From contig NZ_LRXL01000026.1 of the NCBI RefSeq assembly GCF_001637325.1, forward strand, positions 930,001-994,000: 64,000 bases of DNA, in the 5' to 3' direction. Both the position numbers and the translations under genes were made by a program. Positions within the stretch are counted from its first letter, which is position 1. The number at the start of each line of letters is the position of its first letter. This document shows positions 10,224 to 27,528 of this stretch, piece after piece. The notes beneath the pieces were generated by a model, which saw only the letters and a program-made list of their open reading frames with translations, was not told where the DNA came from and did no database searches. The stretch comes from Cochleicola gelatinilyticus. Its GTDB lineage: Bacteria > Bacteroidota > Bacteroidia > Flavobacteriales > Flavobacteriaceae.

Positions 10224-11357
10224 TTAGTTGTATTTAACTTTTCGAAGAATACGAACCGACTCCTTATAAGAACGGTATACTTCGGGAAAAGGTTTCAGAA
10301 GTGACTTTGAAGCTTCAAGTTTTGATCGTGCTTCAGAAAAATCATTCAGAAAACAAATGAGATATGTAGCTGGCAGATGTTTTAAATCTTTTTCTTCGGA
10401 AGGAGTTAAAGGGATTGCCTTCCGAAGTTTATCAACCAAAGCATTGTTAGCATTATAAATGTGATGCAGCGTTTTTTTATTAAAACGAGGTGGGTTAAAT
10501 ATTAATTTTGACTCTAAGTGATACGATCCGCTATCACGGAAGGTAATGGTGACAATTTCTAAAGGGTAATACCGATATTGATTGTTTAAGCCAAGATGGA
10601 CATACTCGGTGATTTTAAATTCATTTTCAGAATAAACGATCGAGACCTCATCTAGAGCAGAGTAGAACAAACGCACTTGTTCGTTAATTAATTCAATATC
10701 CACCCGGGAGTAGTACGTTTCATTTTTTACAGTATTGGTAATTCCTGCCCAACAAACCACAAACAACTCTTTAAATACTTTATAATGTGATTCTAGATTT
10801 TTGTGGCGTGTATTCATAAAATCCATCACGCCATCTAAAGTAAGTTCGATGTTGTTTTTGGCCATGTTCTCGATCCCCTTAACGATCTCTGAATTCACAT
10901 CTTTAATTTCGATATCGAAATCTTTTGGCATCGAAATGCTTCCGTCGCGAAGAAAAATAGAACCTCCCCAATACTTCCAAATGTTTTTGCGAAGGGAGGT
11001 AATTTTTCCATTAGGTCGAATCGTTACTAATCCCACCACTTTATCTGGGGGCAAATGGGGAAAAGCTACGTTTTCGTAAATAATGAGCGGTGCGTTGGTG
11101 AGGTAGGCATTTACTAAATTTTGAATTTTACTATCGTCGAAAAAATCAACTCCACGTATTTCATTGGTTTCGTCTTCAGCACCGATCACAATAAATGAGT
11201 TATTATTTGGGTTGCTGTTGCTAAGAGCACAAATGTGTTTTAAAAATTTTGCTTTGCCCTCTTTACTGCCCAAATCGATTTTTCGTTTTTTATCATAGAA
11301 GCTGCTCTCATCATTGTGAGCTAACAAGTTTTTAATAAGCAACCTTTTATTAATCAT
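10224..11357 (-). CDS. AlbA_2 / Schlafen-type domain protein
   Basis: 377 aa. The N-terminal half (about 10-140) is an AlbA_2 (Schlafen AAA_4-like) domain: LAHNDESSFYDKKRKIDLGS, KAKFLKHICALSNS, the strand-turn SFIVIGAEDE and a later GLVTIRPNGK. The C-terminal half lacks recognisable motifs (EEKDLKHLPATYLICFLNDF is helical). Such proteins bind nucleic acid and are often called ATP-binding or transcriptional regulators without proof. Its start overlaps the stop of the upstream SDR gene by 4 bases, so both are on one transcript. Confidence 0.75.
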   Translation of the reverse strand: MINKRLLIKNLLAHNDESSFYDKKRKIDLGSKEGKAKFLKHICALSNSNPNNNSFIVIGAEDETNEIRGVDFFDDSKIQNLVNAYLTNAPLIIYENVAFPHLPPDKVVGLVTIRPNGKITSLRKNIWKYWGGSIFLRDGSISMPKDFDIEIKDVNSEIVKGIENMAKNNIELTLDGVMDFMNTRHKNLESHYKVFKELFVVCWAGITNTVKNETYYSRVDIELINEQVRLFYSALDEVSIVYSENEFKITEYVHLGLNNQYRYYPLEIVTITFRDSGSYHLESKLIFNPPRFNKKTLHHIYNANNALVDKLRKAIPLTPSEEKDLKHLPATYLICFLNDFSEARSKLEASKSLLKPFPEVYRSYKESVRILRKVKYN

Positions 11358-12812: not shown

Positions 12813-13817
12813 ATGGAACAAACAAATACTGCCTTAGATATTGGGGCTTTAAATGAAAGAATTGAAAAGGAAAGTGCTTTTGTTGACATCCTGTCGCTTG
12901 AAATGAATAAAGTAATCGTCGGTCAAAAACACATGGTCGAACGATTAATGATTGGATTGCTAGCACAAGGGCATATATTACTAGAAGGGGTTCCCGGATT
13001 AGCAAAAACGCTCGCTATTAATACACTTTCAAAAGCAGTACACGGAACTTTTAGCAGAATACAGTTTACACCCGATTTGCTTCCTGCCGATGTGGTAGGA
13101 ACGATGATCTATAATATGAAGGTGAACGATTTTAGCATTAAAAAAGGGCCTGTTTTTGCAAACTTTGTGCTTGCAGATGAGATAAATAGAGCGCCGGCTA
13201 AGGTTCAATCTGCTTTGTTGGAAGCGATGCAGGAAAAGCAAGTGACCATCGGTGAAGAAACGTTTATCTTAGATCGTCCATTTTTGGTAATGGCAACACA
13301 AAACCCAATTGAGCAGGAAGGGACGTATCCGTTACCAGAAGCCCAAGTGGATCGTTTTATGCTAAAAACGGTTATCGAATATCCAAAATTGGCAGAAGAA
13401 CAACTCATTGTTCGTCAAAATTTAAAAGGTGCATACGAACAGGTAAACCCTGTGGTAACGCTGGATCAGATTAAAAGGGCACAACAAGCCGCTCGTGATG
13501 TATATATGGACGAAAAGATCGAAAAATATATCCTTGATATTATTTTCGCAACACGTTCTCCAGAAAATTACAGATTAGCAGATTTAAAACCTCTTATTAA
13601 TTTTGGTGCTTCTCCAAGGGGGAGTATTAATCTTGCGATGGCGGCAAAATGTTATGCATTCATCAAGCGTCGCGGATATGTAATTCCAGAAGATGTTCGC
13701 GCCGTTGTACACGATGTATTACGTCACCGTGTTGGAATTACATACGAAGCTGAAGCCGAAAATATTACTTCTGTAGACATTATCAATAAGATTGTAAACG
13801 AGATCGAAGTACCTTAG
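12813..13817 (+). CDS. MoxR-family AAA ATPase of the Bat operon
   Basis: 334 aa AAA+ ATPase. Walker A is GVPGLAKT, Walker B LADEINRAPAK, sensor 1 ATQNPIEQEGTYPLPEAQ, followed by the arginine-finger DRFMLK and the C-terminal lid with GASPRGSINLAMAAK. MoxR ATPases act as chaperone-like remodellers of von Willebrand factor A (VWA) proteins, and the next genes encode exactly such proteins. It is the first gene of an operon of eight genes (12813-22011), the Bacteroides aerotolerance (bat) layout. Confidence 0.93.
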   Translation: MEQTNTALDIGALNERIEKESAFVDILSLEMNKVIVGQKHMVERLMIGLLAQGHILLEGVPGLAKTLAINTLSKAVHGTFSRIQFTPDLLPADVVGTMIYNMKVNDFSIKKGPVFANFVLADEINRAPAKVQSALLEAMQEKQVTIGEETFILDRPFLVMATQNPIEQEGTYPLPEAQVDRFMLKTVIEYPKLAEEQLIVRQNLKGAYEQVNPVVTLDQIKRAQQAARDVYMDEKIEKYILDIIFATRSPENYRLADLKPLINFGASPRGSINLAMAAKCYAFIKRRGYVIPEDVRAVVHDVLRHRVGITYEAEAENITSVDIINKIVNEIEVP

Positions 13818-13918: not shown

Positions 13919-14782
13919 ATGGATACCAAAGAACTTCTTAAGAAAGTACGAAAAATCGAAATCAAAACACGTCGGTTAAGCGACCACGTTTTTGGTGGCG
14001 AATATCACAGTACGTTTAAAGGTCGTGGAATGACTTTTAGTGAAGTGCGTCAATACCAATTTGGAGACGACGTTCGTAACATCGACTGGAATGTTACCGC
14101 CCGATATAACGAACCCTTTATAAAAGTTTTTGAAGAAGAACGAGAACTTACCTTGCTTTTAATGGCAGACATTAGTGGCTCTGAATTTTTTGGGACAGAC
14201 GCTCAGTTCAAAAATGAAATTATTACTGAAATAGCAGCAACCCTTGCCTTTTCAGCCATGCAGAATAACGATAAAATTGGTCTCATTCTTTTTTCAGATG
14301 AGATCGAATTATTCATTCCACCAAAAAAAGGAAAGTCGCACGTACTTCGTATAATTCGTGAATTGCTTGAGTTTAAGCCTGAAAGTAAACGCACCGATAT
14401 TGGTCATGCGTTAAAATACATGGCGAATGTTATGAAGAAGAAAGCCATCGTTTTTGTGCTTTCCGATTTTATAACAGACAATTATAAAGACACATTGCGC
14501 ATTGTTTCGGGAAAACACGATGTAACCGGAATTCGAGTATACGATCGTAGGGAAGAAGAAATTCCAAACCTCGGTATGGTCGAAATGCAGGATCAAGAAA
14601 CAGGAGAATTACTATTGGTAAATACGGCTTCAAAAGGAGTGCGTCGTGAATACGAAACCTACTATCGGGACCGTGTGGACTATTTTAAAGAGTCATTTCA
14701 AAAAAGTGGTGCAGGAGCATTAAGTTGTCGTGTAGATGAAAGTTACGTAAAGAAATTATTAGGTTATTTTAAAAGACGATAA
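13919..14782 (+). CDS. DUF58 (VWA-like) protein of the Bat operon
   Basis: 287 aa. The DUF58 signature GRGMTFSEVRQYQFGDDVRNID is followed by WNVTARYNEPFIKVFEEER, then a VWA-like fold with a MIDAS-type DISGS and TDIGHALKYM. There is no membrane segment, so it is the likely cytosolic partner of MoxR. It stands 101 bases after moxR and 21 bases before the next gene. Function is inferred from the conserved operon. Confidence 0.9.
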   Translation: MDTKELLKKVRKIEIKTRRLSDHVFGGEYHSTFKGRGMTFSEVRQYQFGDDVRNIDWNVTARYNEPFIKVFEEERELTLLLMADISGSEFFGTDAQFKNEIITEIAATLAFSAMQNNDKIGLILFSDEIELFIPPKKGKSHVLRIIRELLEFKPESKRTDIGHALKYMANVMKKKAIVFVLSDFITDNYKDTLRIVSGKHDVTGIRVYDRREEEIPNLGMVEMQDQETGELLLVNTASKGVRREYETYYRDRVDYFKESFQKSGAGALSCRVDESYVKKLLGYFKRR

Positions 14783-14803: not shown

Positions 14804-16489
14804 ATGTTAGATAAAAGATTTTTAAAATTGAATCGCATTCAAACCAAATTTCTGAAAACAACTACAAACAGTCCAAAACACATTTTTGTGTCTTTGTGTC
14901 TTATCCTTTTCTCTTTTCTATCGAATGCACAAGTAACCTCTTCCATCGATTCTACATCAATTAAGATTGGTGAAGAACTAAAATATACCATCGAGGTCGT
15001 TGCCGATACCACAGCATTGGTTGGATTTTCTGAAGGGCAGCCTTTTCTTCCCCTAGAGATTATAGAATCGTATAAAGTAGATACTACTTATGAAAATGCA
15101 AAGTACCGACTCATTAAAAAATACGGACTAACTCAATTCGATTCTGGCACCTATACCATTCCGCCGCAACGTGTTTTTATAGGTGAGAAAATCTATACGA
15201 CCGATTCGGTTTCAGTCGAAGTTCGTGATGTCGTCGTAGACACAACTACACAAAAAATGTACGACATTAAACCTGCAATGGAAGTAAAAAGCCCTCCTTT
15301 TAGCTGGGATTGGTTGTATTTTATACTTCCAGCTTTACTAGTATTAGGGTTGTTAGGGTATTATCTCTTCCGAAGAAAAAAGAAAAAAGATGCCGAAGAA
15401 AAGCAACTACCACCATATGAAGAAGCAATTACGGCATTACATGTATTAGATAGTTCATCTCTACTGAAAGAACGCAAGTCTAAAGAATATTACTCCCAGC
15501 TTACAGAAATCGTTAAACGCTACCTCGATCGTGAAGTAGACGAGACAGCTTTAGAAAGTACAACCGATGAGTTGATCCAACGTCTCAACATGCATAAGCA
15601 GGCAGGACACTTTGAGTTCGATACAGAAACCATTCGTCATCTCGACCAAATTTTAAAACGTGCCGACCTTGTAAAGTTTGCTAAAATGGAACAGGCTGAA
15701 GGACAAGCTCAAGCTGACCGCGCAACGGTAGAATCTATTATAAATGAAACGCACGAAGTAATTCCCGAACCTACCGAAGAAGAATTACAGGCGAATGAAG
15801 AATATCGTGAAATGCTTCGGAAGAAACACAAACGCAAACAATGGGCGCTTGCAATCGGAGGAGTGATCGTAGCACTATTGTTAGGAATGATTGTCTACGG
15901 AAGCGTCACAGGATTCGATAATCTGAAAGATAAAATTGTTGGAAACGAACTCCGCGATCTTTCTGAAGGTCGATGGGTGCGTAGTGAATACGGTTATCCG
16001 GCAGTAATTCTTGAAACTCCAGAAGTATTAGTAAGAACAGGGAAACCAGCGTCAGACTCCTTGCAGCAATTTACACCAGGTAAAAGCACTTTTACATATG
16101 GAGACACCTCAGACCCATTATTTATTTCGGTTTCCACTCTCTTGGTTCCACCTGCTCAGCAACAACAAGAGCAAGACCTCGAAAAAGGGTTGGATTCTTC
16201 GTTGGAGTTTCTTGAAAAACAAGGGGCTAAAAATATGCTCGTGAAAAGGGATGACTTCGAAACTAATAAAGGAATTAAAGGAGTTCGTGCCTACGGAACA
16301 TTTAATGCCGAAGTAGCTCCAAATAGAATACAGGAAGAGAAAAGTACTTACGAGTTATTTTATTTTGCACAACAAGGTGGCGTGCAACAGGTATTAATCG
16401 TTTATAAAGAGGACGGTCGATTTGCTGAAGATATTAAAGAACGTATTGTAAGGTCTATAGAGCTTGAAATATCAGAAACTAAAAAATAA
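14804..16489 (+). CDS. BatD-like multi-domain membrane protein of the Bat operon
   Basis: 561 aa. An N-terminal hydrophobic segment (about 27-43, signal peptide ending near SNAQ) leads to a periplasmic beta domain of about 120 aa with EELKYTIEVVADTTALVGF, typical of BatD-type or DUF4381-like proteins. Transmembrane helices lie near residues 168-188 and 347-366, the first followed by a basic RRKKKK stop. Between them is a helical cytosolic domain (LTEIVKRYLDREVDETALESTTDEL) shared with BatD tails, and the C-terminus is a second soluble domain with ELFYFAQQGGVQQVLIVYKED. It overlaps the next gene by one base. Exact function unknown. Confidence 0.75.
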   Translation: MLDKRFLKLNRIQTKFLKTTTNSPKHIFVSLCLILFSFLSNAQVTSSIDSTSIKIGEELKYTIEVVADTTALVGFSEGQPFLPLEIIESYKVDTTYENAKYRLIKKYGLTQFDSGTYTIPPQRVFIGEKIYTTDSVSVEVRDVVVDTTTQKMYDIKPAMEVKSPPFSWDWLYFILPALLVLGLLGYYLFRRKKKKDAEEKQLPPYEEAITALHVLDSSSLLKERKSKEYYSQLTEIVKRYLDREVDETALESTTDELIQRLNMHKQAGHFEFDTETIRHLDQILKRADLVKFAKMEQAEGQAQADRATVESIINETHEVIPEPTEEELQANEEYREMLRKKHKRKQWALAIGGVIVALLLGMIVYGSVTGFDNLKDKIVGNELRDLSEGRWVRSEYGYPAVILETPEVLVRTGKPASDSLQQFTPGKSTFTYGDTSDPLFISVSTLLVPPAQQQQEQDLEKGLDSSLEFLEKQGAKNMLVKRDDFETNKGIKGVRAYGTFNAEVAPNRIQEEKSTYELFYFAQQGGVQQVLIVYKEDGRFAEDIKERIVRSIELEISETKK

Positions 16490-17474
16490 TGTTGAACAAT
16501 TTTGAATTTGTTAATCCACAGTTTTTCTGGTTGTTTTTATTACTTCCAGTGCTTATCCTATGGTATTTCTGGAAAAGGAAACAACAAACTGCTGCATTAA
16601 AAATCTCAAGCATTAAAGGATTTAAAACCAAGAAAAATTGGTTGGCACGATTGCGTCCACTGCTTTTCGTGTTGCGACTGCTTGTGCTCTCTGCATTGAT
16701 TGTAGCGATGGCACGTCCTCGAACAGTAGATGAAACTACAAAAACGGTAAACAACCAAGGAATCGATATTGTGATGGCGATCGATGTTTCGGCAAGTATG
16801 CTAGCACGTGACCTTAAACCAAACCGGTTGCAGCTCGATTTATTAACGAAAGACCTACCGACCGTATCGGACTCGTTGAATACGCAGGAGAAAGTTATAC
16901 AAAAACACCATTAACGAGTGACAAAAGCATTGTGCTGTCGTCTTTAAAAGGAATTAAATACAATACGATTATTGAAGGAGGTACCGCAATCGGTTCTGGA
17001 TTGGCGACCGCAGTAAACCGTTTAAAAGAAAGCACAGCGAAGAGTAAAGTAATTATCTTATTAACCGATGGAGTTAATAATACCGGATTTATAGATCCAA
17101 AAATTGCAAGTGAGCTGGCTGTGGAATTTGGAATAAAGGTATACACCATTGGACTGGGAACTAACGGAATGGCATTGTCTCCCATAGGCATTCGTCCCGA
17201 CGGCGGATTTCAATACGGACAACAGAAAGTGGAAATCGATGAGGCCTTGCTAAAAGCGATTGCAGAAACTACTAGCGGAAGGTATTTTCGTGCAACAAGT
17301 ACTACTAAACTGGTAGAGATTTATGACGAGATCAACAAACTGGAAAAAACAGATATTGAAGAATTTCGATATAAAAGTTACAACGAAATGTTTCGTCCTT
17401 GGGTACTATTAGCATTAGGATTGCTAGGATTAGAGCTGCTTTTGCGCTATACCCTATTTCGAAGTTTTGTGTAA
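16489..17474 (+). pseudogene. batA: batA (VWA membrane protein), interrupted by a frameshift
   Basis: Two pieces of one gene. The 5' piece (16489-16914) has a membrane helix, a second hydrophobic stretch before ARPRTVDE, and the VWA MIDAS AIDVSASM, then leaves frame after PNRL. The 3' piece is in the +1 frame: frame reading FINERPTDRIGL continues EYAGESYTKTPLT and runs through TDGVNNTG to the terminal helix at 17474. Comparison with the paralogue batB, where 9 residues separate PNRL from IINSLGGDRVGV, shows only 8 bases here where 27 are expected: 19 bases are missing at about 16826-16831. Restored, the protein is 334 aa, the normal BatA length. The 3' piece has only a GTG start without a leader. 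Confidence 0.85.
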
Positions 17475-17553: not shown

Positions 17554-18594
17554 ATGTATCAATTTGAACAACCCGTTTTCTTTTATGTATTAGTCGCCAT
17601 TCCAGTGGTAATACTGCTATTTTTTGTGGTACAGATATGGAAACGACGCACGCAAAAAAAATTCGCTGATACAGATTTACTAAAAAAATTAAGTCCGAAC
17701 AGCTCTGTGTTCAAACCTGTTTTAAAAGTACTGGTGTTGAGCCTTGCTATTGCTTGTTTTAGTTTTGGATTGGTAAATCCTAAAGTGGGAACCAAACTTG
17801 AAACAGTTACCAGAGAAGGTGTCGATGTGGTCTTTGCGCTCGATGTTTCTAAAAGTATGCTGGCAGAAGATATTGCTCCTAATAGGCTAGAAAAGTCGAA
17901 GCAACTTATTTCGCAGATCATTAATAGTCTAGGAGGCGATCGAGTGGGTGTAATTGGATATGCGGGGAGTGCATTTCCACAGGTACCAATTACTACCGAT
18001 TTTGCTGCAACGCGCTTATTTTTAAGTAATATGAATACCGACATGGTTTCCTCGCAAGGAACTGCTATAAATGAAGCAATTCGAATGGCGAAAACCTATT
18101 ACGATGATGAAAATCAAACCAATAGGGTGCTTTTTATCGTTTCAGATGGAGAAGATCACGAAGGAGATGCAGCCGATATTGCTTCGGAAGTTTCAGACAG
18201 TGGCATAAAAATTTATACCATTGGAGTAGGAACCTTACAAGGAGGGCCAATTCCTATTAAACGAAATGGAATCCTTCAGTTTTATAAAAGAGACCAGAAC
18301 AACGAACAGGTAATTACGAAGCTTGGAGAAGAAAAGTTAAAAGAAATTGCTTCGGAAGCAGGAGGAGAATATATTAATGGAAGCAACACCAAAGAAGTGG
18401 TTGACACAGTGACAGCTATTTTAAACGGAATGGATAAAAAAGAGTTTGAAGCAAAGCAATTCACAGATTTTAAAGATCAATTTCAATGGTTTATCGGTGG
18501 GGCATTATTTTTGTTGTTATTCGATGTGTTACTCCTTGAACGTAAGACAGCTTGGGTTAAAAAGTTGAACTTGTTTAATGAAAAAGCAGCTTGA
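17554..18594 (+). CDS. batB: BatB, VWA-domain membrane protein
   Basis: 346 aa. Two N-terminal hydrophobic segments (about 8-27 and 56-75) flank a basic loop. The VWA domain has the MIDAS ALDVSKSM, the conserved AEDIAPNRLEKSKQ, then GDRVGVIGYAG and SDGEDHEGD, and one C-terminal transmembrane helix ends it (about 310-330). In the Bacteroides aerotolerance operon, BatB pairs with BatA and is remodelled by MoxR. Because batA is broken here, batB is the only intact VWA membrane protein of the operon. It follows batA after 79 bases, with batC starting 1 base beyond its stop. Confidence 0.92.
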   Translation: MYQFEQPVFFYVLVAIPVVILLFFVVQIWKRRTQKKFADTDLLKKLSPNSSVFKPVLKVLVLSLAIACFSFGLVNPKVGTKLETVTREGVDVVFALDVSKSMLAEDIAPNRLEKSKQLISQIINSLGGDRVGVIGYAGSAFPQVPITTDFAATRLFLSNMNTDMVSSQGTAINEAIRMAKTYYDDENQTNRVLFIVSDGEDHEGDAADIASEVSDSGIKIYTIGVGTLQGGPIPIKRNGILQFYKRDQNNEQVITKLGEEKLKEIASEAGGEYINGSNTKEVVDTVTAILNGMDKKEFEAKQFTDFKDQFQWFIGGALFLLLFDVLLLERKTAWVKKLNLFNEKAA

Positions 18595-18595
18595 T

Positions 18596-19465
18596 ATGAA
18601 CTTGAAAATAAACAAAATAGCGAATTACCTTCCGAAGAAAAAAAACCTTCTTCTATCCTGTTTATTGTGTTTTTCGGTAGTGTTATTTGGACAAGAAACC
18701 GAAGAAGAACTTAAAATTGAAAAAGAATCCGACACCTATCTTAGCGAAGCGAGTGTTGCGATGCAAAATAAAAAATTTACGCAAGCAGAAGCAGATTACA
18801 GGAAAGCGATTTCTTTACAGGGTGCCAATGAAACTGGAAAGTATAATCTGGGAAATGCGTATTATGAAAAGCAATTTACAGAGGAAGCTATTCAGCGATA
18901 CAAACAAGCGGCACAGGTAGCGGAAGGTAAACCAGCAAAGCATAAAGCATTTCATAATTTAGGTAATGCCTTTATGAAAAAGAAACAATACGAAGGTGCT
19001 GTAGAGTCATACAAAAATGCACTTCGCAATAATCCAACCGATGACGAAACTCGTTATAATCTTGCACTAGCAAAAGAGATGCTTGAAAAAAATCCGCCGC
19101 AAAATGATGAAGGTGGAGATGACAATGAAGATAAAGAGAATAAAGACGATCAAGAGAATAAGGATAAAAAAGACGAAGGCGACAATAAAGAGGGAGATCA
19201 AGGTGACGAAAAGGATGAAAAAGATAAAGGAGAAGAAGAGAAAGACAAACAGGAAGGAGATAATGAAAAAGATAAAGGAAAGCCTGAAGATAAAGAAGGA
19301 GAGCAGGAGCAGCCAAAACAACAACAACCTGTACCGGGACAATTATCTCCACAGCAGGTAAAGAATTTGTTGGATGCCATGAATAATGAAGAACAAAAGG
19401 TTCAAGAAAAAATTAACGCACAAAAACAAAAAGGTGCAAAAGTAAAATCGAATAAAGATTGGTAA
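18596..19465 (+). CDS. batC: BatC, TPR protein with acidic/lysine-rich tail
   Basis: 289 aa from the ATG at 18596, just after the batB stop; an in-frame ATG at 18578 inside batB is an alternative. A signal peptide or anchor (about 16-35) is followed by two to three TPR units: KFTQAEADYRKAISLQGAN, ETGKYNLGNAYYEKQF and KAFHNLGNAFMKKKQYEGAV. After NPTDDETRYNLALAKEML comes a low-complexity Glu/Asp/Lys tract of roughly 75 residues, then a PGQLSPQQVKNLLDAMNNEE helix that closes BatC proteins. It presumably scaffolds the periplasmic side of the complex. Confidence 0.9.
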   Translation: MNLKINKIANYLPKKKNLLLSCLLCFSVVLFGQETEEELKIEKESDTYLSEASVAMQNKKFTQAEADYRKAISLQGANETGKYNLGNAYYEKQFTEEAIQRYKQAAQVAEGKPAKHKAFHNLGNAFMKKKQYEGAVESYKNALRNNPTDDETRYNLALAKEMLEKNPPQNDEGGDDNEDKENKDDQENKDKKDEGDNKEGDQGDEKDEKDKGEEEKDKQEGDNEKDKGKPEDKEGEQEQPKQQQPVPGQLSPQQVKNLLDAMNNEEQKVQEKINAQKQKGAKVKSNKDW

Positions 19466-19469
19466 GACA

Positions 19470-21251
19470 ATGAAATGTAAACACTTCATATACATATTGC
19501 TCTTTATTTTCGGCACTGGAATGATGCAGGCTCAAGTAAAATTTGACGCCAAAGTGAGCAAAAAGAAAATCGGGATCAACGAACGACTTCGCATTGATTT
19601 TGAAATGAATAAAGATGGAGATAATTTCAATCCCCCTGCATTCGAAGGTTTCGATGTAGTAGGAGGCCCTAATCAGGCGATTAGTAATTCGTACATTAAT
19701 GGAAAACGATCGTACTCTAAAACATATTCGTATTTTCTTTCTCCGCAATCCCAAGGTAATTTCACTATTGCTCAGGCAACCATCGAGATCGATGGAGAAA
19801 CCTACAAAACATTACCAGTCTCTGTAATTGTGACATCTGCAGTTGAGGTTCCGAAAAATGGGAACGACGCAACTTATGTCGCTAGTGAAAATGTACATCT
19901 TGTAGCAGAAATTTCTAATTCTAGCCCTTATTTAAATGAAGCCATTACGGTAGTTTACAAAATGTATGTGTCTCACGATGTAAGTATTACGAGCACATGG
20001 CGAGAAGTTGATACCCCTAAGTATGCCGACTTTTGGAGTCAGAATATTAACAACCAAGGTAATTTTAAAATTTACGAAGGGAAATATCAAGGAGAGGATT
20101 ACCGCTATGTAATTTTGCGAACCACTGTATTATATCCACAAAAAACGGGCAAGCTTGAAATAGAGCCCTTGACCCTGGATGTTCCTATCGATGTGCCAGG
20201 AAATCGTCGAGATATCTTCGGAAGAAGGATGACAACACGAGTTAATAAAAAGATTTCGGCGGGTAAAAGAAGTATTTCTGTAAAACCACTTCCCGCAGAT
20301 GGAAGACCAGACAATTTTAATGGTGCGGTGGGAGATTTTGACTTTAATGTAACCGCTAATAAAACAACCCTCGATGCAAACGAATCGCTCGAATTGAATG
20401 TTAAAATCTCTGGAAAAGGAAATCTAAAGCTTTTTGAACTACCCACTCCAAAGTTGCCTAGTTCCTTAGAGGTTTACGATCCTGAGCGTAAAGAAAATGT
20501 TCGAACCGACCGCAGTGGAATGAATGGAAACATTAATGAAACCTTTACCGTGGTACCTCAGAACCAAGGGATTTATCCAATTCGGCCTATTACATTCTCT
20601 TATTTTAATCCTAAGACCGAAAAGTATGTGACTATCGCCTCTAAAGAAATAGTTATCGATGTGGAAAATGGTCCTATAGCTACAGTTCCGGCTGTTTCGA
20701 ATAATGGAGATGGCAATCAGAAAGCGGTGGTGGCAGCGAAAAGTCAATTTGAGTACATTAAACTCAACACCAATTTAAAGCCTATTAACCAAGATCCATT
20801 CTTTAAATCGACTTTGTTTTGGTCGTTGCTTGGTGGACCGTTGTTATTAATTCCGTTGTTTATACTTGTAGGAAACAAACGTCGGGAACGTAGGAGCGAT
20901 GTGCAAGGAAATAAACTTCGGAAAGCAAATCGTTTGGCGAAAAAGTATCTATCTGAAGCTAAAAAGAATGTTGGAGACAAAGTTGTTTTTTACGAAGCTT
21001 TAGAGCGTGCTTTACACAATTATTTAAAAGCCAAACTAAGCATAGAAACTTCAGAATTTGATAAGGAATACATCGCTCGCTTGCTAGAAGAAAGAAATGT
21101 AGAAGTGGCTACCATAAGCCAGTTCACAGGACTATTACAAAGTTGTGAGTATGCTCGTTATAGTCCAGCCTCGAACGTTACGATTCAGCAAGATTATAAC
21201 AAAGCGGTCGAAACAATTTCAGCTATCGACAAACAAATTCAGTATCGTTAA
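19470..21251 (+). CDS. batD: BatD, large periplasmic-domain membrane protein
   Basis: 593 aa. The signal peptide ends near MMQAQ, followed by several immunoglobulin-like beta modules typical of BatD ('oxygen tolerance'): KKKIGINERLRIDFEMN, GGPNQAISNSYINGKRSYSK with YFLSPQSQGNFTI, and a central VVYKMYVSHDVSIT. A transmembrane helix near 447-467 (FWSLLGGPLLLIPLFIL) precedes a basic, helical cytosolic tail of about 120 residues (ALERALHNYLKAKLSIETSEF) that resembles the helical part of the 14804-16489 protein. It starts 4 bases after batC and ends 1 base before batE. Confidence 0.92.
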   Translation: MKCKHFIYILLFIFGTGMMQAQVKFDAKVSKKKIGINERLRIDFEMNKDGDNFNPPAFEGFDVVGGPNQAISNSYINGKRSYSKTYSYFLSPQSQGNFTIAQATIEIDGETYKTLPVSVIVTSAVEVPKNGNDATYVASENVHLVAEISNSSPYLNEAITVVYKMYVSHDVSITSTWREVDTPKYADFWSQNINNQGNFKIYEGKYQGEDYRYVILRTTVLYPQKTGKLEIEPLTLDVPIDVPGNRRDIFGRRMTTRVNKKISAGKRSISVKPLPADGRPDNFNGAVGDFDFNVTANKTTLDANESLELNVKISGKGNLKLFELPTPKLPSSLEVYDPERKENVRTDRSGMNGNINETFTVVPQNQGIYPIRPITFSYFNPKTEKYVTIASKEIVIDVENGPIATVPAVSNNGDGNQKAVVAAKSQFEYIKLNTNLKPINQDPFFKSTLFWSLLGGPLLLIPLFILVGNKRRERRSDVQGNKLRKANRLAKKYLSEAKKNVGDKVVFYEALERALHNYLKAKLSIETSEFDKEYIARLLEERNVEVATISQFTGLLQSCEYARYSPASNVTIQQDYNKAVETISAIDKQIQYR

Positions 21252-21252
21252 T

Positions 21253-22011
21253 ATGAGAACAAAGGAACTTTTAGTATCGGGTTTTATGCTGTTTTTTTCG
21301 GCAATTACTTTTGCGCAGAGTACATCTTTATTTGAAAAAGGAAACGAACTATACAAGGCAGAAGAGTACCACGAAGCAGTTACCACGTGGACAAAAATAT
21401 TAGAAGATGGTGAACATTCTGCCGCCTTATATTTTAATCTGGGGAATGCACACTACAAGTTAAACGATATTGCACCCAGCATATATTATTACGAAAAGGC
21501 GTTGCAGTTAGCACCAAATGATGAGGATATAAAAAACAATTTACAATTTGCCCAAAATGCCCGTATCGATGTAATCGAACCCCTACCAAAGAGTGTATTT
21601 GCTAAATGGAACGCTTCTGTTGAAGGATTGTTTACATACGATCAATGGGCTTTAACCGCAGTAAGCGCTTTAGCCCTATTTGTGTTGCTATTTTTAGTGT
21701 ATTATTTTTCTTATTCTGAAAAACGAAAAAGACTTTTTTTTGTGGGTTCCATGGGAGCTGTTTTAATAGCTGTTATTGCTGTTGTAATGGCGTACAATAC
21801 ATTTGGGGCGATAGAAAAAGATATGCCAGCAATCGTTTTTTCTGAAAGTGCTGAAGTAAAAAGTGAGCCTAACTTGAGAAGTGATGCTGCTTTTACTTTG
21901 CATGAAGGAACTAAAGTTCAGATCTTAGATACAGATTCAGATTGGGTGAAAATTGAGTTGGCAGATGGAAAAGATGGATGGATTCCTGCAACCGATTTAA
22001 AAGTACTCTAG
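21253..22011 (+). CDS. batE: BatE, TPR and SH3-like membrane protein
   Basis: 252 aa from the ATG at 21253, next to the batD stop; the longer open frame from 21145 lies within batD. A signal peptide ends at TFAQ. Two TPR units follow (FEKGNELYKAEEYHEAV; AALYFNLGNAHYKLNDIAPSIYYYEKAL). Two transmembrane helices (about 132-152 and 164-182) lead to a C-terminal SH3_3 domain (about 195-252) with SEPNLRSDAAFTLHEGTKVQIL and WVKIELADGKDGWIP. This order is that of BatE and marks the operon end. Confidence 0.92.
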   Translation: MRTKELLVSGFMLFFSAITFAQSTSLFEKGNELYKAEEYHEAVTTWTKILEDGEHSAALYFNLGNAHYKLNDIAPSIYYYEKALQLAPNDEDIKNNLQFAQNARIDVIEPLPKSVFAKWNASVEGLFTYDQWALTAVSALALFVLLFLVYYFSYSEKRKRLFFVGSMGAVLIAVIAVVMAYNTFGAIEKDMPAIVFSESAEVKSEPNLRSDAAFTLHEGTKVQILDTDSDWVKIELADGKDGWIPATDLKVL

Positions 22012-22450: not shown

Positions 22451-24031
22451 ATGTTTTCAAGAATTAAAAATGATCTCCCAGCGAGTATCGTAGTATTTTT
22501 TGTCGCGCTACCTTTATGTTTAGGTATTGCTCTTGCAAGTGGCGCACCTCTTTTTTCAGGTTTAATTGCAGGAATTATAGGAGGAATAATCGTAGGGGCT
22601 CTTAGTGGGTCTTCTATTGGAGTAAGTGGCCCCGCTGCAGGTCTTGCAGCTATTGTCTTAACAGCTATTGGAACCCTTGGGGGGTACGAAAACTTTCTTG
22701 TTGCTGTTGTAATTGGAGGGTGTATTCAATTGCTTTTTGGTTTTTTAAAGGCAGGAATTATTGGATATTATTTTCCTTCTTCAGTAATTAAAGGAATGTT
22801 AACCGGAATTGGAATCATCATTATTTTAAAACAAATTCCACACTTTTTTGGTTATGATGCGAATCCAGAAGGCGATTTTGCATTTTTTCAAGTAGATGGA
22901 GAAAACACTTTCTCTGAAATTTTTGTCGCCCTCAACTCTATTAGTATTGGCGCTACAATTATTGCTATTATTAGTTTAACAATTTTGTTATTATGGAGTC
23001 AGGTATTATCTAAAAAGGGTAAATTTTTTCAAATCGTTCAAGGCCCTTTAGTAGCTGTAACAGCTGGAATTATTTTCTATATAGTCACGAAGGGTAATGA
23101 AACACTTTCTATAGCCGCGGATCATTTAGTAAAGGTACCGGTTCCAGACGATTTTAACTCTTTTATCGGTCAGTTTAGCTTTCCTAATTTTGCAATTATT
23201 GGAAATCCTGAGGTCTGGGTTGTTGGTTTTACAATTGCCTTGGTAGCAAGTCTAGAGACCTTATTGTGTGTAGAAGCAACCGATAAATTGGATCCTGAAA
23301 AACGCGTGACACCAACAAATCGTGAGCTTTTAGCTCAAGGTACAGGAAATATTGTATCTGGATTAATTGGAGGGTTACCTATAACACAAGTAATTGTACG
23401 AAGTTCTGCGAACATTCAGTCTGGAGGTAAATCGAAATTATCGGCTATTATTCATGGATTCCTTTTACTTATATCTGTAATTATTATTCCAACCATACTT
23501 AATATGATACCGCTTTCGGTATTGGCTGCAGTACTTTTAATCGTAGGTTATAAGTTAGCTAAACCATCTACGTTTAAAGCCATGTATAAAGCAGGATGGA
23601 AACAGTTTGTACCCTTTATTGTAACCATTGTAGGAATCGTGTTTACAGACCTATTAATTGGTATAGGATTAGGATTGGCAGTTGGAATTGTAATCGTTTT
23701 ACTTAAAAGCTACCAGAACTCTCATTTTCTTCATATTGAAGATAAAAGTAACGGAAAACACAGGATCAAGATGGCATTAGCAGAGGAGGTTACATTTTTT
23801 AATAAAGGTGCGATCTTAAAAGAGCTTGATCGTTTGCCAAGAGACACTTATTTAGAATTGGATGTAAAAAAGACTAGGTATCTAGACGCAGATATTGTTG
23901 AAATACTAGAAGACTTTGCTTTTAAGGCCAAGGAAAGAAACATAGATATCAAGATTATTTCGGAACGAGGTGTGGTAGATAATCCATCAAGTTTTATCGA
24001 GTTTTTCCAACTTAGACCTAAATCTGCATAA
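22451..24031 (+). CDS. SulP-family anion (probably bicarbonate) transporter with STAS domain
   Basis: 526 aa. SulP transporters are 14-segment anion carriers. The N-terminus DLPASIVVFFVALPLCLGIALASGAP and the motif SGPAAGLAAIV in helix 3 are standard, as is the central LETLLCVEATDKLDP region and TQVIVRSSANIQSGG. A STAS domain closes the protein (about 420-526, DVKKTRYLDADIVEILEDF). SulP members can carry sulfate, bicarbonate or other anions. Bicarbonate is inferred from the beta-carbonic anhydrase gene two positions downstream. The universal stress protein gene follows after 9 bases. Confidence 0.88.
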   Translation: MFSRIKNDLPASIVVFFVALPLCLGIALASGAPLFSGLIAGIIGGIIVGALSGSSIGVSGPAAGLAAIVLTAIGTLGGYENFLVAVVIGGCIQLLFGFLKAGIIGYYFPSSVIKGMLTGIGIIIILKQIPHFFGYDANPEGDFAFFQVDGENTFSEIFVALNSISIGATIIAIISLTILLLWSQVLSKKGKFFQIVQGPLVAVTAGIIFYIVTKGNETLSIAADHLVKVPVPDDFNSFIGQFSFPNFAIIGNPEVWVVGFTIALVASLETLLCVEATDKLDPEKRVTPTNRELLAQGTGNIVSGLIGGLPITQVIVRSSANIQSGGKSKLSAIIHGFLLLISVIIIPTILNMIPLSVLAAVLLIVGYKLAKPSTFKAMYKAGWKQFVPFIVTIVGIVFTDLLIGIGLGLAVGIVIVLLKSYQNSHFLHIEDKSNGKHRIKMALAEEVTFFNKGAILKELDRLPRDTYLELDVKKTRYLDADIVEILEDFAFKAKERNIDIKIISERGVVDNPSSFIEFFQLRPKSA

Positions 24032-24040
24032 TCTATACCT

Positions 24041-24847
24041 ATGAAACATATTAAAAAATGTAAAGTATTAGTTCTTTTAGATTTAAATGATCGAAGTCTA
24101 AACGTACTTAAAAGCGCAAATAGAATAGCGGAAATTGTAGACGCTGAAATTGAAATGTTTCACGTTCGTAAACCCACTCAAATTGTAAAGATGGATAGCA
24201 ACCTCTCTGCGGTTAAAGACATCAAAGATCATTTTGTAACTATTGAAAATGAGCTTAAAAAAATGGGAGTCGAAGTCTTTGGAAATTCGAATATAAGCGG
24301 AAATCATTTTCATACTTTTGGGAATATAAAAAATGAAATTGAGAAACATATTCGTAAAACAAATCCAGACATTGTAGTTGTTGGAAAAAAAGCTTCAAAA
24401 AGCCCTGGGTTCATAGGAGATAAAATTCTTCCATTTCTTCTGAAAAAATTTCAGGGAACGGTAATGGTGACAGATCATGATGTCGTATTAAATGGAATGT
24501 CTAAATTAAAGATTGGAGTGTTAGATAATACTCCACTTGAGTCTAAATCCCCTTACATTAAAACCTTGCTTGAAAATTCTGAAGCTCCGATACACTCTTA
24601 TGAAATTTCAAGCGGCTTTAAAGAAGATGAGGATAGGACCGCACAAAAGAAGCAGGAAATTGTTTCTTATGTTTTTGAAAAAAGCGATCAATCATTACAG
24701 ACCATTTCTAGCTATATGAATAGGAGTAAAATAAACTTATTGCTAGTTAATCGTAATTCGAAAATTGGTAGTAATAATCGGGATTTTTCAATTTCAAAAT
24801 TGAATGATTTAGTACAAACTATGAAAGTTCCCGTTTTGCTCTCTTAA
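24041..24847 (+). CDS. Universal stress protein-like protein
   Basis: 268 aa, two UspA-like halves. The first (about 5-145) has KVLVLLDLNDRSLNVLKSANRIAE, the UspA first strand and helix, and ends with DIVVVGKKASKSPGFIGDKIL...GTVMVTD, close to the nucleotide-binding GxxGxx region. The second half, starting near KLKIGVLDNTPLESK, is divergent and ends KVPVLLS. Such tandem proteins are often placed beside transporters and may couple transport to energy state; that is inferred. It is tightly linked to the SulP gene (9 bases) and 52 bases before the carbonic anhydrase. Confidence 0.75.
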   Translation: MKHIKKCKVLVLLDLNDRSLNVLKSANRIAEIVDAEIEMFHVRKPTQIVKMDSNLSAVKDIKDHFVTIENELKKMGVEVFGNSNISGNHFHTFGNIKNEIEKHIRKTNPDIVVVGKKASKSPGFIGDKILPFLLKKFQGTVMVTDHDVVLNGMSKLKIGVLDNTPLESKSPYIKTLLENSEAPIHSYEISSGFKEDEDRTAQKKQEIVSYVFEKSDQSLQTISSYMNRSKINLLLVNRNSKIGSNNRDFSISKLNDLVQTMKVPVLLS

Positions 24848-24899
24848 GTAAGCGTAAGAAGCAATTTTTTTTGTATATTAATTAAAAGAAAAAAATAAA

Positions 24900-25532
24900 A
24901 TGAAAGCACAAACGAAAGAAACACAAAATCAATATACCCCTCAATCTGCTGTAGAAGCATTGAAAGAAGGAAATAAAAGATTTCTAAATAGTACTCAAGT
25001 AAACCGTGATTTGCTTAACCAAGTAAAAGATACCTCGGGAGGTCAATGGCCTTTTGCAGTAGTGCTTAGTTGTATTGATTCTAGAGTCCCAGTAGAACTG
25101 GTATTTGATCAAGGAATTGGAGATATTTTTAGCGCACGAGTGGCGGGTAACATTGTGAATGAAGACCTATTAGGAAGTATAGAGTATGGTTGTAAAGTTG
25201 CAGGAAGTAAGGCAGTTGTTGTCTTGGGGCATACTGGTTGTGGTGCTGTGAAAGGAGCCTGTGATGATGTCCAGTTAGGAAATATTACACCATTATTATC
25301 TAAAATAAAACCTGCTGTAAACGCAGTTACTTCACCATCTAACTCGGAGGAGCGGACAAGTGCCAACACAACATTTGTTAATGATGTGGTGTATAAAAAT
25401 GTACGTATGACTATGGATGAAATGAAAAAGCAAAGTTCCGTTTTAAAAGAGATGCAAGAGGAGGGGACAATTACAATTGTTGGTGCCGTATACGATGTAG
25501 GTTCTGGCGCGGTAGAATTTATCGACGCATAA
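24900..25532 (+). CDS. Beta-class carbonic anhydrase
   Basis: 210 aa. The zinc ligands Cys58, His111 and Cys114 are in LSCIDSR and GHTGCGAV, and the Asp60-Arg62 dyad is present, giving a complete beta-carbonic anhydrase site (CO2/bicarbonate interconversion, EC 4.2.1.1). No signal peptide is visible, so it is cytosolic. It lies between two SulP transporter genes, which suggests it converts imported bicarbonate into CO2 for carboxylases, or the reverse. A hairpin with a T-run after its stop probably ends the SulP-USP-CA transcript. Confidence 0.92.
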   Translation: MKAQTKETQNQYTPQSAVEALKEGNKRFLNSTQVNRDLLNQVKDTSGGQWPFAVVLSCIDSRVPVELVFDQGIGDIFSARVAGNIVNEDLLGSIEYGCKVAGSKAVVVLGHTGCGAVKGACDDVQLGNITPLLSKIKPAVNAVTSPSNSEERTSANTTFVNDVVYKNVRMTMDEMKKQSSVLKEMQEEGTITIVGAVYDVGSGAVEFIDA

Positions 25533-25559
25533 ATATTGCAACATTAAAATTAGCTCTAA

Positions 25560-25592
25560 AGGAAGGTCGGTCCGTAAGGTCTGACCTTTTTA
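25560..25592 (+). terminator. Terminator after the carbonic anhydrase gene
   Basis: AAGGTC (25563-25568) and GACCTT (25583-25588), with GG/CT continuing inside, then a T-run. A modest stem, but well placed 30 bases after the stop. Confidence 0.6.
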
Positions 25593-25631
25593 AATTATTG
25601 ACTATTTATTGCTATACACATAAAGTTTTGG

Positions 25632-25661
25632 TTGATAAAAACTACTTTTATCGTACATTTA
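25632..25661 (+). promoter_or_regulatory. Near-consensus promoter before the second SulP gene
   Basis: TTG (25632-25634), 19 bases, TACATTTA (25654-25661), one mismatch from TAnnTTTG, 20 bases upstream of the ATG at 25681. Confidence 0.4.
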
Positions 25662-25680
25662 AGAATATTTTGAAAAGTCT

Positions 25681-27528
25681 ATGAAGAATTTATTTACAAA
25701 TTTAAGAGGAAATTTATTTGGTGGTATTACAGCAGGAATTGTAGCGCTTCCTCTCGCACTTGCATTTGGGGTGCAATCTGGTTTAGGTCCAGATGCTGGA
25801 TTATATGGAGCTATATTTATTGGTTTTTTTGCTTCTCTTTTTGGAGGAACTAACACTCAGATATCAGGACCAACGGCTCCGATGACAGCCGTTTCTATGG
25901 TTGTAATTGCAGGAATCATAGCTGCTAATAATGGAGATGTAGCTACTGCTTTACCCTACATTTTATTAGTTTTTTTATTAGCTGGTCTGTTCCAAATTGT
26001 ATTGGGATTAATAGGTTTAGGAAAATATATTAAGTACATACCCTACCCTGTAGTTTCAGGTTTTATGACCGCAATTGGTGTGATCATTTTGATTACTCAA
26101 ATACTTCCAGCATTAGGATATTATGCAAATGAAGATGACGAGTACGTGGAAACATTTAAACCGCAGGCGGAAGAAGTTTTGTTAGACAAAATTTTAAAAG
26201 ATGAAGCTGGGGAAGGAATTTTAGTTTTAGAAGACTTTAAGGAAACGGTAAGTAGAGCTGAAAAAATCACTAACGACGAAATTTATAAAGAAGCACGTAC
26301 ACTTGCTAAGTCTAATAGTAGTGGAGTTTTAGGGTCAATAAAAGTATTACCTAAAGCAATACAGAATATTAATTGGCTAGAATTTATTTTAGCATTCGCT
26401 ACCATCTTCATCATATTTGGATTTAAAAAGATTACAACAAAAGTGCCTAGCACCTTAGTCGCTTTGGTAGTTGTTTCGTGCGTAGCGATCTTTTTTAATT
26501 TAGATTACCGCCCAATCGAACAGATACCAGGAGGACTTCCCTTACCGAACTTAGACATTTTTGCTAATTTTAGTTTCGGACAAATATCTCCCTATATTTT
26601 TACTGCATTGACCCTTTCGTTTTTAGGAGCAATCGATTCATTGCTTACCTCGGTAGTGGCAGATAATATGACAAAAACAAAACACAAGCCAAATCAAGAA
26701 TTAATTGGTCAAGGTATTGGAAATAGTGTTGCAGCGATTTTTGGAGGAATTCCAGGAGCTGGAGCAACCATTCGAACGGTGGTGAATATTAACTCTGGGG
26801 GAACTACGAAACTTTCGGGAATGATTGCTGCAATTTTATTGTTAATAATTCTACTAGCACTTGGCCCTGTAGCATCGCAAATTCCAGCAGCAGTTTTAGC
26901 AGGAATACTTGTAACTGTGGGAATAGGTGTAATGGATTACCGAGGTCTTAAGGCAATTCCAAAAATGCAGAAAGGGGAAATTGCCGTTTTGTTAGTGGTT
27001 CTTATACTTTCGGTATTTTGGAATTTGGTGTATGCGGTAGGTATTGGATTAGTATTAGCATCCCTAATATTTATGAAGAAAATAGGTGATGTAAGTGCTA
27101 CACGATCCAAAATGGTGCCTCTTGGGAATGCAGATGAATTAGGTTTGCCTTGGAACGATGAAGATAATTTTCCAACCCAATTAAAGGAAGAAGTCTTTAT
27201 TAAACGATTAGACGGACCTCTATTTTTTGGAAACACAAACGATTTTCAAGAATTGGCAGGTGGACTCCCAGTTACTGCAACCCACGTAATTATTCGAATG
27301 GGAAAAGTGCCTTACATGGATCAATCTGGATTGTTTGCAATGGAGGAAATTTTATTGCAATACAGTCAAAGAAATATTAAAACAATATTGGTTAATGTTC
27401 AAGCACAACCTAACGCAATGATGAGAGGTATCGATATTATACCAGATCTAGTTCCAGAAAAGCGAATTTTTAATTCGTTTAAAGAAGCGATGAGTTATAT
27501 TCGTGAAAATGTAAACGATATCGTTTAA
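25681..27528 (+). CDS. Second SulP-family (probably bicarbonate) transporter with STAS domain
   Basis: 615 aa, longer than the first SulP by about 90 residues because of an insert near residues 150-235. That insert is rich in acidic residues (YYANEDDEYVETFKPQAEE) and sits between two membrane helices. Conserved parts include GITAGIVALPLALAFGVQSG, SGPTAPMTAVSMVV, LGAIDSLLTSVVAD and GGIPGAGATIRTVVNINSGG. A C-terminal STAS domain has PYMDQSGLFAMEEILLQYS with the regulatory Asp-Gln-Ser. Placement after the carbonic anhydrase suggests a bicarbonate carrier (BicA-like by family). It is probably transcribed from its own promoter. Confidence 0.88.
   Translation: MKNLFTNLRGNLFGGITAGIVALPLALAFGVQSGLGPDAGLYGAIFIGFFASLFGGTNTQISGPTAPMTAVSMVVIAGIIAANNGDVATALPYILLVFLLAGLFQIVLGLIGLGKYIKYIPYPVVSGFMTAIGVIILITQILPALGYYANEDDEYVETFKPQAEEVLLDKILKDEAGEGILVLEDFKETVSRAEKITNDEIYKEARTLAKSNSSGVLGSIKVLPKAIQNINWLEFILAFATIFIIFGFKKITTKVPSTLVALVVVSCVAIFFNLDYRPIEQIPGGLPLPNLDIFANFSFGQISPYIFTALTLSFLGAIDSLLTSVVADNMTKTKHKPNQELIGQGIGNSVAAIFGGIPGAGATIRTVVNINSGGTTKLSGMIAAILLLIILLALGPVASQIPAAVLAGILVTVGIGVMDYRGLKAIPKMQKGEIAVLLVVLILSVFWNLVYAVGIGLVLASLIFMKKIGDVSATRSKMVPLGNADELGLPWNDEDNFPTQLKEEVFIKRLDGPLFFGNTNDFQELAGGLPVTATHVIIRMGKVPYMDQSGLFAMEEILLQYSQRNIKTILVNVQAQPNAMMRGIDIIPDLVPEKRIFNSFKEAMSYIRENVNDIV

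Follow-up and report, generated by a model that had tools for sequence, protein, structure and literature searches.

A 19-nucleotide gap splits batA in an otherwise intact MoxR-Bat operon of Cochleicola gelatinilyticus

The window, that is, the whole 64,000-nucleotide stretch of Cochleicola gelatinilyticus DNA analysed here, carries between 12.8 and 22.0 kb an operon with the gene order moxR, DUF58, BatD-like, batA, batB, batC, batD and batE, in which batA occupies the position between moxR/DUF58 and batB that it has in the MoxR-Bat operon. The features of the locus are as follows:

12813 to 13817, forward strand: moxR-type AAA+ ATPase gene, intact (PF07726, E = 6.9e-65)
13919 to 14782, forward strand: DUF58 protein gene, intact (PF01882, E = 3.5e-84)
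14804 to 16489, forward strand: DUF4381/BatD-like protein gene, open frame of 561 aa (two weak Pfam matches, both under the curated cut-offs)
16489 to 16914, forward strand: 5′ piece of batA, 141 aa, ATG start at 16489 (PF07584 BatA, E = 1.7e-17)
16825 to 16838, forward strand: putative deletion junction, where each of 107 relatives has 19 nt more, with GTTG at 16827-16830 fitting both frames
16827 to 17474, forward strand, -1 frame: 3′ piece of batA, rest of the VWA domain and C-terminal end (PF00092, E = 1.8e-18)
17554 to 18594, forward strand: batB, intact VWA paralogue (PF00092, E = 1.3e-19)
18578 to 19465, forward strand: batC, TPR protein gene, intact (list of open reading frames and Pfam)
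19470 to 21251, forward strand: batD, intact (PF13584, E = 6.8e-42)
21253 to 22011, forward strand: batE, TPR and SH3 protein gene (list of open reading frames and Pfam; start by inspection)

In this operon batA is split, and the whole protein is no longer encoded. The 5′ piece comprises 114 native residues (16489-16830; last native codon TTG at 16828-16830) followed by 27 out-of-frame residues up to a stop at 16912-16914. It carries the BatA N-terminal domain, which scored 64 bits (cut-off 25.9), and, as read directly from the translation, the D-x-S-x-S stretch (IDVSAS) that is part of the VWA metal site. The 3′ piece opens with V-A-A-R-F-I-N-E at 16827 and runs without internal stop to the TAA at 17472-17474; the VWA match, which begins at profile position 35 of PF00092, sits in this -1 frame and not in the frame of PF07584. 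Both frames are open across 16827-16914. The first listed start within the 3′ piece is a GTG at 16932, from which a product of 180 aa lacking the D-x-S-x-S motif would result. In VWA domains, metal is bound by motifs such as D-x-S-x-S and the GGTAIG and LTDG stretches. Direct reading placed the first of these in the 5′ piece and the other two in the 3′ piece, and since the motifs are divided in this way, neither piece can build the metal site.

The size of the gap was determined by comparison with orthologues. For this we assembled 109 batA loci, consisting of 29 loci from a first genome set (the best 30 less that of the Cochleicola genome itself) and 80 named loci (the best 80 of 435), which after removal of two duplicates left 107 distinct frames. 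Results showed that the spacing between the P-x-R-L and [FI][IV] motifs is exactly nine residues (27 nt) in 107 out of 107 frames, at a site where the window holds 8 nt, so that 19 nt are missing. A reading made from the sequence alone had already concluded that batA (16489-17474) is frame-broken by a 19-bp loss, taking as its measure the paralogue batB, and had called for a comparison with the batA of the closest relative. Direct reading of batB indeed gave nine residues between PNRL and IINSLGGDRVG, and the orthologues, every one of which has nine residues and a continuous frame across the site, place the 19-nt difference in batA itself.

Close named batA loci include those of Ulvibacter antarcticus, Aequorivita, Altibacter and Patiriisocius. 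The batA genes of U. antarcticus and Aequorivita species, which belong to MoxR-Bat operons of Flavobacteriaceae, share domains and neighbours with the batA of the window, and identity to such genes reaches 88% over the C-terminal piece; they differ in being continuous, with nine residues at the site where the window's gene is 19 nt short. A continuous batA is the rule in this family. When 59 relatives were searched, no match was found in two of them (G051 and G059), and all 57 matching genomes contained continuous frames of 324-354 aa. At the level of the family, batA was matched at E <= 1e-45 in 198 of 199 genomes, that of Cochleicola included. Among the 150 matches listed of these 198, frames of 330-391 aa were present in 148, and the gene was short only in the Cochleicola genome and in one other (G199); of the 48 further matching genomes, nine are listed as continuous in the search of 59 relatives. 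The Cochleicola genome is the only one of its genus in the collection searched. The short gene of G199 (L115, G199:C1:2391300-2394200, in a genome of 4 contigs) has frameshifts at two other positions. We first took it for a second natural loss, but its breaks at two other places look more like sequencing error.

The other genes of the operon are intact, in agreement with the sequence-only reading: moxR, DUF58, BatD-like and batB to batE are all open frames with Pfam matches, those of the BatD-like protein lying under the cut-offs. For every intact gene of the operon except batE, 72-79 of 80 relative loci aligned over more than 80% of the protein encoded in the window. The open frame listed for batE starts at a GTG at 21145, and by inspection the ATG at 21253, giving 252 aa, is the likelier start. 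Stops inside the aligned stretch were seen in seven relative matches (one of BatD-like, three of batC and three of batD; loci L064, L084, L089, L092, L093, L097 and L109) and in none of batA; the seven may reflect ends of alignments, errors or real breaks. The genome was also searched for an intact second copy of batA, and none was found, the sole further match to the C-terminal query being batB. The genome has a third BatA N-terminal domain at G000:C44:245704-245931 (L112), away from the bat operon and in a frame of 665 aa; this protein did not match the C-terminal query.

We then asked how old the break might be by scoring near-invariant positions, defined as those at least 95% conserved among the relative loci. 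None of the 113 such positions in the C-terminal part of BatA (79 relative loci) and none of the 32 in the N-terminal part (80 loci) were changed in the window, with a median of 0 for the other loci in both cases. Among the neighbouring genes, moxR and DUF58 each deviate at one conserved position (of 225 and 167, respectively; median of the others 1 in both), batB at two of 137 (median 1) and batD at four of 157 (median 1.5). Thus, batA shows no relaxation of conservation. Because no conserved position has changed on either side, the lesion must be recent; the pattern fits a very recent mutation, perhaps present in this strain only, or an error in the data. As 98 of the 1899 possible single changes in the C-terminal piece create a stop, we roughly estimate a 95% chance of one after about 58 random substitutions (0.09 per site). 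An old pseudogene was rejected on account of the unchanged conserved positions and the lack of any stop in the C-terminal piece. The sequence-only reading had left the choice between a dispensable gene, a recent loss and an assembly error. The last two are still live; the first, understood as long-term dispensability, finds no support in a gene that shows no decay.

We favour a real and recent deletion of 19 nt in batA, to which we assign a probability of about 0.7. Its length and place follow directly from the comparison with the orthologues, whereas its presence in the DNA of the cell is our inference. The main rival is an assembly or sequencing error, according to which batA is intact in the cell and the 19 nt are missing from the data alone; we regard this explanation as a serious minority view. 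Two pieces otherwise unchanged at their conserved positions are exactly what one would expect from an error, the gene is continuous in all the matching relatives, and the two frameshifts in the batA of G199 offer an example of what looks like sequencing error in the same gene. Several features of the site and of the genome argue the other way. A loss of 19 nt is untypical of indel errors and is not of the homopolymer type, and a repeat of 4-6 bases is far too short to cause a collapse in assembly. With its position at 946.8 kb, the lesion is deep inside a contig of 1.24 Mb, and the genome (3.39 Mb, 53 contigs) is 99.98% complete with 0.06% contamination. Moreover, no other split gene was seen when the Pfam tables, which covered 60 of the 67 open reading frames of the window, were inspected and neighbouring pairs compared (among the 50 proteins in one part of that scan, five had no Pfam match). 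Generally poor sequence quality in the window was therefore discarded as an explanation, no further broken gene having been recognised among the 60 frames scanned.

The remaining explanations would have the two pieces make a functional product, and both appear highly improbable. In the first, a -1 ribosomal frameshift would join the frames to yield a BatA about six residues short. The two frames do overlap openly over 16827-16914 and each piece is conserved on its native side, but the zero frame of the first open reading frame (16489-16914) contains no X_XXY_YYZ heptamer, for which reason canonical -1 frameshifting was rejected, and the sole run of five equal bases from the junction to the stop is AAAAA at 16901, close to the stop. 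In addition, the product would still be short in a stretch whose length is constant in 107 of 107 orthologues, and the orthologues examined have continuous frames. The sequence-only reading had named relatives with the same frame and a recoding signal as one finding that would overturn it; what we found instead was continuous genes in the relatives and a first frame devoid of the heptamer. The second of these explanations, a stable split gene whose pieces function jointly after separate translation, with reinitiation at GTG 16932, is the least probable of all: that start codon is indeed present 17 nt past the stop, in an open C-terminal frame, but the second piece would begin within the VWA domain, with the conserved residues of 16827-16931 lost as well, and the first piece would end in 27 out-of-frame residues.

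If the deletion is real, the bases at its junction suggest how it could have arisen. The GGTTG at 16826-16830 is located where the sequence-only reading had placed it, and its last four bases, GTTG at 16827-16830, are compatible with both sides: in the left frame they form the end of the R codon and the L codon, and in the right frame the V codon and the first base of the A codon. That reading had proposed a microhomology deletion at GGTTG in which the lost sequence ended in Glu-Val-Ala. A junction at a short repeat is plausible, as GTTG fits both frames, but the lost copy is itself a deduction and the proposed glutamate is not the commoner residue, since Thr precedes Val-Ala in 28 of the 107 relatives and Glu in 18. 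Thr-Val-Ala is thus at least as likely as Glu-Val-Ala for the lost sequence, and GGTTG may fall one base short of the original repeat. A right-hand GGTTG occurs in three of the 107 relatives (L013, L032 and L052), and in none is it common to both sides; the longest run shared at the site is four bases, in four of 107, and in 69 of 107 it is a single base. Of the 107 relatives, 26 use GTT for the Val; if the lost Val codon was a different one, the two sides could have overlapped by just one base. Runs of at least four shared bases at a spacing of 19 nt cover 1.3% of the breakpoints in the 107 intact batA genes, and because they are so scarce, a breakpoint placed at random would not be expected to show one. 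Given a real deletion, we consider microhomology or slippage, with a repeat copy presumed lost, its likely cause.

According to this mechanism, the 19 nt just past the D-x-S-x-S stretch of the VWA domain would have been removed by replication slippage, or by another microhomology-mediated event, between two repeat copies of 4-6 bases. The resulting frameshift would lead to the stop ending at 16914, 84 nt beyond the last native codon, so that a complete VWA metal site could not be formed in one protein, while the rest of the operon would remain coding; expression of batB may be lowered by polarity. The loss would perhaps be limited to this strain or date from its time in culture. Frameshift pseudogenes created by deletion between short direct repeats are a known class. 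The batA of the window resembles them in its frameshifting loss and in junction bases that fit both sides, and differs in that it is known only in the deleted form, with the second copy gone.

The Bat proteins owe their name to a transposon mutant of Bacteroides fragilis whose aerotolerance was reduced; in 2012 their function was described as unresolved (PMC3557215). A ΔbatA mutant of Riemerella anatipestifer is viable with weaker resistance to oxidative stress (PMC11834572), and Leptospira biflexa deleted for all its bat genes shows no phenotype (PMC3557215). These bacteria are likewise viable without BatA or any Bat protein, with the difference that their mutations were engineered, whereas the loss in the window is natural or an artefact (PMC11834572; PMC3557215). 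In Brachyspira, batB to batE lie together and batA at a distinct place, and the excerpted text describes no broken batA (PMC3532143). An 18-bp repeat deletion is reported in a gene called batB, for which the authors predict no direct relation to phage resistance (PMC8521149). Since the published bat mutants are viable, a viable cell without BatA would come as no surprise. Among the open-licence papers listed, no natural loss of batA in Flavobacteriaceae was found. Members of COG 1721 are, we assume, DUF58 proteins, which makes the name BatA doubtful for a gene that bears this label. Such a gene, called BatA and labelled COG 1721, is the site of a transposon insertion in a biofilm-deficient mutant (PMC3387259).

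The weight of the finding depends on which explanation holds. A real deletion would be a natural loss of a gene that is nearly universal in the family (198 of 199 genomes, this one included) and would make the need for BatA testable within an otherwise intact operon. That it is both real and fixed in the species, yielding a flavobacterium that runs the MoxR-Bat operon with BatB but without BatA, seems to us unlikely; such a species would constitute a natural test of whether BatA and BatB are needed as a pair. If the gap is an error, the annotation of the genome needs correcting. If real, the break looks like an ordinary one, and in neither case does the general picture change.

Two further loci in the window were recorded. 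Downstream of the operon, at 22451-27528, two transporters of the SulP (sulfate permease) family stand on either side of a protein with a Usp domain and a carbonic anhydrase (Pro_CA), an arrangement that looks like a bicarbonate-uptake cluster. Upstream, the protein encoded at 10224-11357 carries a Schlafen AlbA_2 domain and, after it, DUF5929.
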